Shown here piece after piece: positions 2,364 to 14,003 of a stretch of DNA of 64,000 nucleotides. How positions within the stretch are numbered: the stretch's first letter is position 1; every line of letters starts with the position of its first letter. Origin of the DNA: Nitrososphaerota archaeon. Lineage in GTDB: Archaea; Thermoproteota; Nitrososphaeria; Nitrososphaerales; Nitrosopumilaceae. The stretch is taken from positions 846,727 to 910,726 of the forward strand of contig JAGWFT010000001.1 of NCBI GenBank assembly GCA_028867755.1, written 5' to 3'. The translations under genes were made by a program, and so were the position numbers. A model generated the notes under the pieces. It saw only the letters and a program-made list of their open reading frames with translations. It made no database searches and was not told the origin of the DNA.

Positions 2364-3373
2364 TCCCTTGCCATTTCCTGCTTGATGTCTAGCAAGTCGC
2401 GTAATATGGAACTTGCAGTTTCTATTCCACCTGCACCACGCCCTATTATTGTCTGTTGACCTGAGTGCTCTGAGCTAAAGGTAATTGCATTTAATGTCCC
2501 GTTGACACAAAGCGGATCATCTGTAGATATTTCTCTTGGAGATACCTCTAGATCCCTATTACACGATGCAATTAGTTTAACTGCAGCATGGTTTGTTGAT
2601 GCTCGTTTAATGTCAGCAGTTGACACATTTCTAATTCCAGTTCGTTTGATATCCTTGATTGTTACCTTCATATCCATTATCCAGTTTGCAAGTATCACAA
2701 GCTTGGCAGCTGCATCAAATCCGTCAATATCCAAGGATTCATCAGCTTCTACGTATCCTTTTTTCTTTGCGTCAGCAAGGGCTGTCTTAAAAGTCATGCC
2801 GCCAGCCATGTTTGTAAGAATATAATTTGTTGTACCGTTTAGTATGCCTTGAAAAGAAACTATCCTCTCTCCTCTGAGACTATTCTTTGCATAATCTAAT
2901 ATCGGCGTTCCGCCACCGACAGTTCCACTGAATCTTAATTGTACTTGATTGTATGTCGCTAGTTCTATTAAAGATGGAAACGCAAGTGCCAGTGGACCTT
3001 TATTTACTGTAATGACATGCAGGCCTTTTTTCATTGCAGTGACTATGTGTGACATGCCTGGCTCTGCATCCTTGTAGTTACTTGGGGTGGCCTCGATTAG
3101 AACCTCAGCCTCCATACCATTTATCATGTCAAGACCGTTTGCTTCCTTTTCCTTATTGTGATATTTTCGTATGTCTCCATATTTCTTCTTGACTTCAAGC
3201 AATCTGTTTAGATCAATTCCTGCAGACGAAGCAGCAGAACCTTTACTGTCAAATACGCCTACAATTCTAGGCTTGAGACCATGTTTTGCATAAAGATCTT
3301 CGGATCTAGAAAGGAGGAGTTTTGCAAAACTTTGGCCTACTATACCAAACCCCGACAGTATTATGCGCAACAT
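2360..3373 (-). CDS. hom: Homoserine dehydrogenase
   Basis: Reduces aspartate semialdehyde to homoserine with NAD(P)H, the branch point to threonine and methionine. The 337-residue protein has the N-terminal Rossmann motif SGFGIVGQ (residues 7-14), the substrate-domain signature GTVGGGTPILDYAKNSLRG with GILNGTTNYIL (about residues 152-187) and the catalytic Asp/Lys segment ESLDIDGFDAAAK. There is no C-terminal ACT domain, so it is the short, non-fused archaeal form, probably without threonine feedback through that module. First gene of a two-gene unit with the PUA protein. Confidence 0.93.
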   Translation of the reverse strand: MLRIILSGFGIVGQSFAKLLLSRSEDLYAKHGLKPRIVGVFDSKGSAASSAGIDLNRLLEVKKKYGDIRKYHNKEKEANGLDMINGMEAEVLIEATPSNYKDAEPGMSHIVTAMKKGLHVITVNKGPLALAFPSLIELATYNQVQLRFSGTVGGGTPILDYAKNSLRGERIVSFQGILNGTTNYILTNMAGGMTFKTALADAKKKGYVEADESLDIDGFDAAAKLVILANWIMDMKVTIKDIKRTGIRNVSTADIKRASTNHAAVKLIASCNRDLEVSPREISTDDPLCVNGTLNAITFSSEHSGQQTIIGRGAGGIETASSILRDLLDIKQEMARD

Positions 3374-3453
3374 TCACCAGACGCATGTTGGTATTAATTA
3401 AGATTGACGATTTTTGAGATTCCTTTATTAAAGCTTGAAAAACTTCGGATACC

Positions 3454-4107
3454 GTGAAATCTAAAAAATATGTTTACGTTGGAATTGCAGCAGCCTGTAT
3501 TGCAGCAGCAATTGTGATTCTCACCCAGTCCAATGTGGGGCAGACCGCCAGTACTCCCACAGGAATTTCTGCATATACTTTGGATTTTACTTATGAAACT
3601 GCGAACGCAGATTTGAAAAGCACCCTAATAAGTCAAAGCATAAACATGTCAAAACCTCTAGAGTTTAGTACTGCAACTGACATTAACCAGTATTGCAATT
3701 TTCTTACTAATCAGACAAAACAGGCAATGATACAATACTGTACTTCAACAGAAATCAAAGATGAAAACAATAGTTTTCTTGGGAATGTTAACATGGTAGG
3801 ATCCGCTCTTGCACCAGTGTTGGTGATTACGGCAGCACAGTCGGATCCAACATTTAGCAACTATCACGACGTAAAGACTCTCTTTGTAGATGTCATAAAT
3901 GAAACAGTGTGTCAATGTTGGGATAAAGAAAAACCAGGAGGATATTCTACACCATCAGATATGATTGATGCTCTTCGCGCTTTTCACTTGAAGGGAACAG
4001 AACCAGATAGCACCACTCACAGTATACCATTAAACGGAAAACACTTTGAAATTGAGATGACTACAAACACTCAAGGCTATCTCTGGAAATTACTTGTGGC
4101 CAGGTAA
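3454..4107 (+). CDS. Membrane-anchored hypothetical protein
   Basis: 217 residues with one N-terminal hydrophobic segment (about residues 5-24, VYVGIAAACIAAAIVIL) that could be a membrane anchor or signal peptide, so the rest is predicted to face outside. Start is GTG directly after a TATA-like element about 30 bases upstream. The exported part holds paired cysteines (QYCNFL, IQYCTS, VCQCWDK) that could form disulfides. I do not recognise the family. The next gene is a permease on the same strand. Confidence 0.65.
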   Translation: MKSKKYVYVGIAAACIAAAIVILTQSNVGQTASTPTGISAYTLDFTYETANADLKSTLISQSINMSKPLEFSTATDINQYCNFLTNQTKQAMIQYCTSTEIKDENNSFLGNVNMVGSALAPVLVITAAQSDPTFSNYHDVKTLFVDVINETVCQCWDKEKPGGYSTPSDMIDALRAFHLKGTEPDSTTHSIPLNGKHFEIEMTTNTQGYLWKLLVAR

Positions 4108-11415: not shown

Positions 11416-11423
11416 GAAATTCT
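11416..11423. repeat. Left copy of 8-bp target-site duplication
   Basis: The octamer GAAATTCT directly abuts the left terminal inverted repeat, and the same octamer in the same orientation follows the right one. A direct repeat immediately outside inverted ends is the footprint of transposase-mediated insertion. Confidence 0.85.
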
Positions 11424-11484
11424 GGTGCTGGGTAATTGGTGAGACCTTGTAGACAAAATTCTTTGCGTTTACCGTCGAGACCTA
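11424..11484 (+). repeat. Left terminal inverted repeat
   Basis: 61 bases starting GGTGCTGGGTAATTGGTGAG. Matches the reverse complement of the right end perfectly for the first 39 positions, then with four consecutive differences and one further difference. The match stops abruptly at the A-rich run that follows. Confidence 0.9.
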
Positions 11485-11692
11485 AAAAAATTAGATTTTT
11501 TAAAAGGTCAGATTTAGGAAATAAGAATCTACGTTGTGGTTCAGAATCCATAGATCACAACTTACAAAGATGGGTTTGAGGCGATTTTAATGGATAATTT
11601 AGAAGACATTCTAATTATGACTGGAATAATTTTATCAGCACTTGGAATGTTGCCAGAACCTTTAACTTGAAGATGTTAGAGATCGATCAAGT
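11485..11692. other. Interior leader region of the element
   Basis: About 200 AT-rich bases between the left terminal repeat and the cargo gene. It contains a possible 26-codon reading frame (listed separately) and a TATA-like ctttaact near 11660 that is correctly placed for a leaderless TTG start of the cargo gene. I see no other structure. Confidence 0.5.
11590..11670 (+). CDS. Possible 26-residue hydrophobic microprotein inside the element
   Basis: ATG-initiated frame coding a short peptide with an acidic head (MDNLEDIL) and a membrane-like core (IMTGIILSALGML). It precedes the large membrane protein of the element by about 20 bases, so it could be a small partner or a leader peptide. Evidence is only the open frame and its composition; no promoter is clear. 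Confidence 0.2.
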   Translation: MDNLEDILIMTGIILSALGMLPEPLT

Positions 11693-13585
11693 TTGCTATC
11701 TTGTGAAAAAATTGCCGTTTTTGTGTGTTTTTCATTGTTATTAATGCCGTTAATCGTTTATGCAGACAATTACAGCAGTAAGGTTGGAAATCAACAGATC
11801 ACTATTGTAATCAGACCTAACAATACTATTGTCTCGAACATAACAAATAACACTGAAGAGGATAACCGACTGGAAAAGATAGCAGCAGAACTTTCTGAAA
11901 ACGAACGATTTTCATGGACTGAGGGGGATGTAATTATTGCATCTTCAACAATTTTTGCGTTTTTTACATTCAGTTCATTTCTAGTTATCAGATTCAAAAG
12001 CAAAAGGGTAGATGATTTACTAGATCTTATTGATACCATAATCACATCGATTCTATGTATACAAATCATACAGATAGGCATAATTATCATGATTTTGGCG
12101 GGTTGGTTCAAGGAAGGTGCATATGCATACTTGTTAGCTGCTACTGGGTTTTGCTTGATTTTAATTGCAGTTTCAATTCGACAAATAATTCATCTTGAAA
12201 ATAGAAGGGGCGAAAAAATCATCGAGGCAGATGCTACATACAAACAAGTTATGGATAAGATACTAGGATCTGAAAATGTAAAGCGTACCATAGAGAATAT
12301 CATAAATAAACCAATAACTGGGGTTAACAAACCATTTGTAGAACCTGAATTCCAAACATCATTGGATGACGATGATGACGATGAAGATGATGCGTTAGGA
12401 ATTGAAAAATTTTCTAAATTTGGTCAGGCTTCCAAAGCAGGATTAGGTGGAGAAATCATAGGACAGAAAGGACTTGGGAAGCTGTCTCTTCTACGCTTTG
12501 GCGAAAAAGTGAATTTTAGAACCAACAACGGTGAAATTGGCATGGATATAATAATGACTCCACAAGATTTTGAATACGATATAAAATCTGCAACTAAATT
12601 TTTAGATCATCAAGGAACACGCATAATAATACCTAGTCCAAAAGGTGTTCCCCCCGTTGACGATTTGGCAAATTATCTAAAGAAAGTTTTTGGTTTACGC
12701 ATTGCAAAAGGAACAGAGATCATTCTCAATGGGGTAAAACTAGAATCTAATTCTAAAATAGATCCTCAAGAAAAATTCTTGTTCAGGCTTTCTGGTGGTA
12801 AAGTAGATGTAACTGGAAACATGAAAGAAGATAAAAAAGGTCACGGAAATGCTGATCTTTACATAAGACATGTTCTTGTCACATCTCTTTTAGTAGACCC
12901 CGAAAGAAAGTTTTCTGGGTGGGTAAATTGTAATGAATTAATCCCTACAACTTCAAGAAACGATGTCGTTAGAGACAGTCATGGCGGGATATTTGATGAT
13001 TTTCTTGTCCATCTTAAAGATTATGTCCGTCGATTTCCAAAGGTTGAAGAGGAAATCACAAAAGATGAAGAATTGTTAGGTAATGAACTTAACAAAATGC
13101 TACGCAATTATCTAAGCGAGTTAAGGATTCTTCCTCAAGGAACTATTTTGATTGGACGAGGGAACGAAAATACCTTAGATAGACAAGATAAAACCAATAA
13201 GAAGGAAAAAATAATCAAGGACACACCTGAAGAAACGCCCGAATATGTCAAAATGCATACCTCACGAAAAACCAACAAACCTATCAAACGGACTGTTAAA
13301 ACCGATTATGGTGTTATGTGGGTAGATCAAAATATTGGAAATGAAAAAGAACCTATCTTTTTTGTAGAACCCAACATGGTTATTAGAAATAGAACAAATG
13401 ATATTTACAAATTCCTAGTGAAAAACAAAGCATCACTTGGTTCAAAACCAATAAGGGCATTTCCTTATCTTGCGAGAGTAGCTGTAAGTATGAACAAAGA
13501 ATCTCCGAAATGGAATCGTGAGCAGTTATTTCTTGAGATGGATAGGGCTATACGATATTTTCTAAAAAATAAAGGCGAACTTTAG
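11693..13585 (+). CDS. Membrane-anchored, degenerate HSP90/GHKL-type protein
   Basis: 630 residues. A signal-like segment (about 5-24) is followed by three transmembrane helices (about 79-100, 113-137, 143-166). After an aspartate run (225-233) comes a GHKL-like region. DALGIEKFSKFGQASK (233-248) resembles the DxGxG box and its following lid. IGQKGLGKLSLLRFGEKV (256-273) matches the HSP90 IGxFGVGFYS motif, and HQGTRIIIP (307-314) the late GT box. GWVNCNELIPTTSRNDVVRD (409-428) resembles the HSP90 middle-domain segment around its conserved SRE. No N-box (ExxxN/D) precedes, and DxGxG reads DDALG, so ATP turnover is uncertain. TTG start, TATA-like box about 30 bases upstream. Cargo of the terminal-repeat element; function unknown. 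Confidence 0.75.
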   Translation: MLSCEKIAVFVCFSLLLMPLIVYADNYSSKVGNQQITIVIRPNNTIVSNITNNTEEDNRLEKIAAELSENERFSWTEGDVIIASSTIFAFFTFSSFLVIRFKSKRVDDLLDLIDTIITSILCIQIIQIGIIIMILAGWFKEGAYAYLLAATGFCLILIAVSIRQIIHLENRRGEKIIEADATYKQVMDKILGSENVKRTIENIINKPITGVNKPFVEPEFQTSLDDDDDDEDDALGIEKFSKFGQASKAGLGGEIIGQKGLGKLSLLRFGEKVNFRTNNGEIGMDIIMTPQDFEYDIKSATKFLDHQGTRIIIPSPKGVPPVDDLANYLKKVFGLRIAKGTEIILNGVKLESNSKIDPQEKFLFRLSGGKVDVTGNMKEDKKGHGNADLYIRHVLVTSLLVDPERKFSGWVNCNELIPTTSRNDVVRDSHGGIFDDFLVHLKDYVRRFPKVEEEITKDEELLGNELNKMLRNYLSELRILPQGTILIGRGNENTLDRQDKTNKKEKIIKDTPEETPEYVKMHTSRKTNKPIKRTVKTDYGVMWVDQNIGNEKEPIFFVEPNMVIRNRTNDIYKFLVKNKASLGSKPIRAFPYLARVAVSMNKESPKWNREQLFLEMDRAIRYFLKNKGEL

Positions 13586-13646
13586 TAGGTCTCGACAGTA
13601 AACAAGTAGAATTTTGTCTACAAGGTCTCACCAATTACCCAGCACC
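13586..13646 (-). repeat. Right terminal inverted repeat
   Basis: Reverse complement of the left end. It begins one base after the stop codon of the cargo gene and ends CCCAGCACC, immediately followed by the second GAAATTCT octamer. Confidence 0.9.
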
Positions 13647-13654
13647 GAAATTCT
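13647..13654. repeat. Right copy of 8-bp target-site duplication
   Basis: Second copy of GAAATTCT in direct orientation, only a few bases upstream of the TATA box of the S25e gene. Confidence 0.85.
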
Positions 13655-13660
13655 TGTTCG

Positions 13661-13670
13661 TTTATAAATA
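13661..13670 (+). promoter_or_regulatory. TATA box of rps25e
   Basis: tttataaata lies 22-31 bases before the S25e ATG, the spacing expected for a leaderless or near-leaderless archaeal transcript. The element ends 14 bases upstream, so the BRE and anything further out now derive from the element end or the duplicated octamer. Confidence 0.65.
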
Positions 13671-13691: not shown

Positions 13692-14003
13692 ATGGGCGGA
13701 GCAAAGAAAAAATCCCCTGCACAAGCAGAAAAATCTCAGACTGCAGAGGCTGCAAAGAAAGATGGACCTTCAAAGAAAGACAAGAAAGAGCAGAAACAAA
13801 GAACAAACATTTCTGTAATTGTAGACGAAGGACAAGCTATGAGTTTTATAAAAAACTCCAAAGTTTTCACCGTTCAAGAACTGTCTAGGCAAACAAATGT
13901 CAAGGTGTCGGCTGCAAATGCATTTCTGTTAAACTTGTTAAAACAAGGAACAGTAAAGAGAATAGGTGGGTATAGCGGACATCACATCTATGTGCCGTCT
14001 TGA
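13692..14003 (+). CDS. rps25e: 30S ribosomal protein S25e
   Basis: 103 residues. A lysine-rich, disordered N-terminal arm (KKDGPSKKDKKEQKQR) is followed by a winged-helix domain (ISVIVDEGQAMSFIKNSKVF...VQELSRQTNVKVSAANAFL) and the basic GTVKRIGGYSGHHIYVPS end. Archaeal/eukaryotic small-subunit protein near the ribosome head. Its 3' end overlaps the convergent cyclophilin-like gene by 16 bases. Its promoter lies directly beside the inserted element. Confidence 0.95.
   Translation: MGGAKKKSPAQAEKSQTAEAAKKDGPSKKDKKEQKQRTNISVIVDEGQAMSFIKNSKVFTVQELSRQTNVKVSAANAFLLNLLKQGTVKRIGGYSGHHIYVPS

Follow-up and report, generated by a model that had tools for sequence, protein, structure and literature searches.

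A probable transposase-less member of a cargo-carrying, IS6-related archaeal transposon family, inserted beside the promoter of an S25e-like gene

Within a 64,000-nucleotide stretch of a Nitrosopumilaceae genome (assembly GCA_028867755.1, contig JAGWFT010000001.1; this whole stretch is called the window), one gene is enclosed by long inverted repeats and a directly repeated octamer, with no transposase between them. What kind of element is this, how did it come to lie immediately upstream of an S25e-like gene, and is it still mobile? The ends of the unit and its target have the following features.

11416-11423, no strand: left target-site duplication GAAATTCT (octamer match; one copy at the empty site of relatives)
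11424-11484, forward strand: left terminal inverted repeat, 61 bp (repeat pairing)
11424-11446, forward strand: outer box of the left end, GGTGCTGGGTAATTGGTGAGACC
11467-11484, forward strand: inner box of the left end, GTTTACCGTCGAGACCTA
13586-13646, reverse strand: 61-bp right terminal inverted repeat, with its inner box at 13586-13603 and its outer box at 13624-13646
13647-13654, no strand: right target-site duplication GAAATTCT
13661-13670, forward strand: TATA box TTTATAAATA of the S25e-like gene, intact beside the element, 6 nt beyond the duplication
13692-14003, forward strand: S25e-like gene (Pfam Ribosomal_S25), with the targeted promoter

The unit proper spans 11424-13646 (2,223 bp), with target duplications on both sides. 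Its inverted ends pair at 56 of 61 positions, the first 39 being identical, and the repeat finder also returned an 82-nt arm pair (84%). GAGACCT is common to the outer and inner boxes of the left end. The terminal 39-mer occurs at two places only in the 1.64-Mb, 112-contig draft genome of the host, and these are the two ends. A perfect 39-bp inverted repeat with the same octamer abutting both sides far exceeds what chance would produce. The sole sizeable open reading frame (ORF; 11693-13585, forward strand) encodes 630 amino acids, and its last position directly precedes the right repeat. No transposase similarity, and no hidden remnant, was detected within the element when all six frames were searched with a profile built from 32 related transposases. 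The first-pass annotation had described the 61-bp ends with their 39 identical leading positions, the exactly flanking octamer, the missing transposase and the stop codon that touches the right repeat, and was accurate in each. A MITE reading was ruled out by the 630-aa ORF; a casposon reading was dropped on the grounds of a single, non-Cas1 ORF and the 8-bp duplication.

Relics with ends of this type occupy the S25e site in about ten of the genomes compared within the genus. This might suggest that the repeats belong permanently to the chromosome upstream of S25e and are not transposon ends, a possibility that the first-pass annotation had itself raised together with a proposal to look for the empty target site in relatives. 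Among 29 comparable genomes of the genus, 19 carry a precise empty site in which the flanks are joined directly and without scars (for example L074, in which ...CTGAAATTCT is followed directly by CGTTCGTTTATAAATAGG). Such ends also occur at many other loci, each with its own duplication, and the relics at the S25e site are scattered on the locus tree, some of them nested among empty sites. A fixed feature is contradicted by these observations, and we give it almost no credence.

The other 10 of the 29 genomes have insertions at the same S25e position. Four of these (L076, L075, L080 and L083) are scars, 39 bp long in L076 and 35-36 bp in the other three, each consisting of one partial repeat plus the duplication. 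To judge from its sequence, the 39-bp scar of L076 looks like the product of a deletion between AAATTCT in the left repeat and AAATTCT in the right duplication. Larger inserts range from 116 to 1,000 bp, several with recognisable family ends and one containing relics of a transposase C terminus. In a tree of the flanking sequences, occupied sites fall in approximately six places, with L086 nested among the empty L090, L089, L087 and L082. Provided that exact excision is rare, the occupied places correspond to about six separate insertions. A single ancestral insertion at S25e is disfavoured, as inserts nest among empty sites; the empty L074 site may nevertheless have arisen by exact deletion.

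The first-pass annotation had also suggested a search for full-length relatives. A model of the ends built from sequence only detected related ends in 43 of 250 genomes from the host's family (E<=0.01, a threshold at which the weakest matches may be chance), including convergent pairs. Five convergent pairs are flanked by exact 8-bp duplications: TAAAATAA (L048 and L049), TTTTTTAA, GAAAATAA and CAACAAGA. Three of these five enclose a transposase of 371-372 aa. All three transposases match DDE_Tnp_IS240 above the gathering score (E 2e-11 to 8e-15) and have matches to four-Cys zinc domains; SWIM zinc-finger matches are present in two of them. An alignment of the three had matches in 105 of the 250 family genomes (E<=1e-10) and in scattered genomes of the phylum's other families. 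When element ends were resolved de novo around transposase genes, several dozen elements were obtained, most with exact 8-bp duplications, and the outer and inner boxes were alike within one element. Resolved elements measure approximately 2 to 7 kb and nearly all contain passengers, among them restriction-modification genes in at least four elements, proteasome-fold proteins (Ntn-hydrolases) in four, HicAB, SoFic-like Fic and many membrane proteins of unknown function. Full-length relatives with related ends, an 8-bp duplication and a transposase thus exist in related genomes, but they are not small, ordinary IS: the elements appear to form an IS6-related family of DDE transposons that carry cargo and live in ammonia-oxidising archaea and their relatives.

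Two side observations concern the diversity of the family. A subgroup (L137, L202, L204-L206 and L209) has ACTTC or AGTTC tips instead of GG and a divergent transposase; some of its members also insert near TATA boxes. In L052:1348-2702 (G220), family ends and an 8-bp duplication enclose what appears by eye to be a TnpB gene in two frames, so that the interior resembles an IS200/IS605-like element in place of the family transposase.

With IS6 and the archaeal IS6-like elements (PMC7986276, PMC6807381) the family shares the 8-bp duplication and, it appears, a DDE core of IS240/IS6 type, and most of its ends begin GGTTCTGT or similar, as IS6 ends do. It differs from IS6 in how long its transposase and its ends are, in the domains of the transposase and in carrying cargo as a matter of course. 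IS6 transposases have 213-254 aa, whereas those of the family have about 370 aa with N-terminal SWIM and four-Cys zinc domains, and the NCBIfam IS6 scores of the relatives' transposases (108-119 bits) fall slightly short of the curated cut-off of 125. An IS6 element of about 800 bp with ends of 15-20 bp and GG tips contrasts with family elements of 2-7 kb with passengers, whose two-box ends measure about 60 bp and have GG tips in most cases. In the parts of the IS6 literature searched, ISDsp3 is the single passenger-carrying member listed in the IS6 review, archaeal IS6-like elements are argued to be a separate group (PMC6807381), and there is no report of TATA-adjacent targeting (PMC7986276, PMC6807381). 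A survey of the thaumarchaeal mobilome counts IS families, with IS6 among the terms found in the portion searched, and that portion has no description of their cargo or promoter targeting (PMC6563490).

The position of the unit beside S25e can be compared with the insertion sites of the family as a whole. Reconstructed empty sites show that insertions lie beside promoters, and that individual promoters are reused in different genomes. The radA promoter (gene named by eye) is occupied in L158, L161, L164, L172, L173 and L195; that of a signal-peptide protein gene in L050, L138, L145, L146, L148, L150 and L216; that of a 128-aa gene in L049, L051, L175 and L179; and that of a further gene in L204, L206 and L209. 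S25e is also reused, and L223 and L226 provide a reused promoter outside the host's family. Transposase lineages that are distant from each other occur at one site (L051 versus L175 and L179), and the first element of a tandem in L172 belongs to a lineage distant from that of the other radA elements. Note that in this tandem (L172:3344-11218, G119) the two elements, of distant lineages, lie at the radA promoter with the octamer TGTTTTAG between them and on both flanks.

Insertion is intergenic at 22 of 26 distinct in-family sites. A majority of this kind would also be given by purifying selection, if elements inserted widely and survived only upstream of core promoters. Of the 26 distinct sites, 11-12 combine a start codon at a distance of 34-48 nt with a TATA octamer whose first base lies 3-9 nt past the duplication. 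This joint criterion was chosen post hoc; random intergenic positions within these loci satisfy it in 2.6% of cases (P about 2e-11). At the window insertion the start codon is 37 nt from the duplication and the TATA box starts at +6, within these TATA-adjacent limits. The criteria were then frozen and applied to held-out elements from the phylum's other families. Start-codon distance failed (2/14), for which longer leaders in the held-out set would be our guess, while TATA spacing held (7/14 versus 11.5%); the start codon was accordingly rejected as the reference point and the TATA box taken instead. Starts of TATA octamers peak at +5, with 13 at the 26 family sites versus 1.2 per position elsewhere, and 6 at 13 held-out sites versus 0.42 per position elsewhere. 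A position profile trained in-family placed the true position within the top 2.5% of the intergenic positions of the locus at 10 of 13 distinct held-out sites (Fisher P 4e-13). Selection acting on widespread insertion is an unlikely explanation, in view of the peak at one offset in both site sets, the rarity of matching random positions, the use of the same promoters by distant lineages and the success of the in-family profile in other families. Insertion of the family appears to be directed to promoters, with the duplication ending about 5 nt upstream of the TATA box.

On the gene's side, the TATA box and the bases immediately before it (the BRE) stay intact behind the duplicated 8 bp and a further 5-6 nt, so that the gene would be spared. 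The preference for TATA boxes may operate via TBP/TFB or via bent AT-rich DNA. Tentatively, and with somewhat less than even confidence, we suggest that the active core promoter, bound by TBP/TFB, guides the transposase in a Ty3-like manner; this would account for the fixed distance and the spared gene, with highly expressed promoters used again and again as havens for defence genes and other cargo. Ty3 and Ty1 are eukaryotic retrotransposons whose integration is guided by promoter factors, those of Pol III. What is alike is that insertion keeps a small, constant distance from the binding site of the basal transcription machinery and spares the gene; the difference is that Ty3 and Ty1 are retroelements, whereas the archaeal family is a DDE DNA transposon beside TATA boxes with a putative protein tether. 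In the literature searched, of which coverage was incomplete, there was no report of a TATA-adjacent or promoter-targeted archaeal IS or prokaryotic transposon.

The cargo of the window unit bears on how the unit lost its transposase, and is divided as follows.

11693-13585, forward strand: cargo ORF, 630 aa, TTG start, intact, stop abutting the right repeat
11693-12262, forward strand: signal/transmembrane part of the cargo (residues 1 to about 190), with homologues among the passenger membrane proteins that autonomous elements carry
12356-12397, forward strand: acidic junction region of the chimera, LDDDDDDEDDALG (sequence and alignment A4; upstream part without a GHKL N-box)
12458-13582, forward strand: cargo residues 256-630, GHKL-ATPase-like, from the IGQKGLGKLS motif on (24% identical to L139:2820-4229)

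The N-terminal part is 36% identical to L138:3175-3798 and 49% identical to L137:3825-4274, both of which are passengers inside autonomous elements with exact duplications. The relative of the C-terminal part, L139:2820-4229, has HATPase_c_3 (PF13589), and the alignment with it begins at the region equivalent to DxGxG, where the cargo reads EDDALG. In this alignment the cargo C-terminal part has neither the N-box, which is missing, nor the DxGxG motif of GHKL ATPases, and a Pfam search of the window protein gave no HATPase. The whole 630-aa protein has no match in Pfam, NCBIfam, PADLOC or PDB sequences; an AlphaFold model from a four-row alignment (mean pLDDT 35) was unusable. Searches of genome_contigs and viral_contigs gave no relatives of the cargo, and the end sequence gave no match in viral_contigs; a search of phages was likewise negative. 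By sequence comparison, the cargo appears to be chimeric, joining a passenger membrane protein to a GHKL ATPase that begins after the N-box. The "membrane protein" of the first-pass annotation is borne out for the N-terminal third only and gives way to a GHKL-ATPase-like protein in the rest.

We regard it as very probable that the window unit is a transposase-less member of this promoter-adjacent family, because it has two-box ends, an 8-bp duplication, empty sites in relatives and one passenger gene. A family transposase (about 370 aa, with SWIM and four-Cys zinc domains and a DDE core) would have bound both boxes at either end and, with an 8-bp stagger, transferred the 3' ends into the target immediately before the S25e TATA box, so that the core promoter of the S25e gene stayed intact. 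Either a full element inserted and an internal deletion then removed the transposase and fused two passenger genes, or a cassette was moved by transposase supplied in trans. We lean slightly towards deletion after insertion. One deletion of a transposase gene lying between two genes would explain both the missing transposase and the fused cargo. For the window copy this deletion-fusion origin is offered as a hypothesis, and no full parent was found. A chimeric cargo together with loss of the transposase fits decay in place.

That a stable, transposase-free cassette was itself brought here by transposase in trans is a less favoured but genuine possibility. An intact 630-aa ORF fills the unit up to the repeat, and cassettes of this kind do exist: L049:1043-3537 (G122) is a transposase-less cassette with purD-like and ParB-like genes whose ends are 97-98% identical to those of the autonomous element L051 (G140, same promoter), the interiors being unrelated. 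This comparison supports family cassettes that move in trans or exchange interiors. Against a stable cassette, the window unit exists as one copy, with no sister copy anywhere searched and no second locus with the same cassette, and its own draft genome has only four C-terminal transposase fragments, the best of 89 aa. As the genome retains transposase fragments only, this single copy is probably now immobile and stranded. Note that contig gaps in this draft could conceal an intact transposase copy. No end nearly identical to those of the window unit, and hence no donor, was found in the data. The first-pass suggestion of a non-autonomous IS relative mobilised in trans therefore stands as to kind, given the related full elements and the empty sites, while movement in trans of this single copy is inferred. 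Separately, two stretches of the same genome (L141:2658-2936 and 3367-3654; C24 near 1124669) hold a C-terminal transposase fragment and, nearby, a 95-aa ORF similar by eye to a small ORF of the insert that L086 has at the S25e site; these are probably relics of one passenger type.

Taken alone, the window copy adds a new member to the mobile insertion cassettes: inverted ends surround a passenger gene without a transposase, GAAATTCT is duplicated at the element and present once at empty sites, and the ends are related, though not nearly identical, to those of autonomous elements. Mobile insertion cassettes (MIC231; the qnrD mic, PMC3913671) likewise have inverted ends, a target duplication and a passenger instead of a transposase. 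Trans mobilisation by IS231A was shown for MIC231; for the window copy it is inferred, and involves another transposase family and an archaeal host. The autonomous relatives resemble tIS, the name used in PMC7986276 for IS that carry passenger genes, in having a transposase and passengers between their ends; the window copy lacks the transposase. Passengers are usual rather than exceptional in the archaeal family.

If confirmed, these findings would establish a widespread archaeal transposon family that carries cargo (restriction-modification, toxin-antitoxin, Fic and unknown membrane proteins) and also prefers sites at a fixed distance from core promoters. Since the TBP/TFB promoters of archaea are similar to the eukaryotic system exploited by Ty elements, the family would allow a test of whether targeting through basal transcription factors arose outside eukaryotes. 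Its insertion specificity would be of possible use as a tool, and would supply a rule predicting where accessory genes enter streamlined thaumarchaeal genomes.
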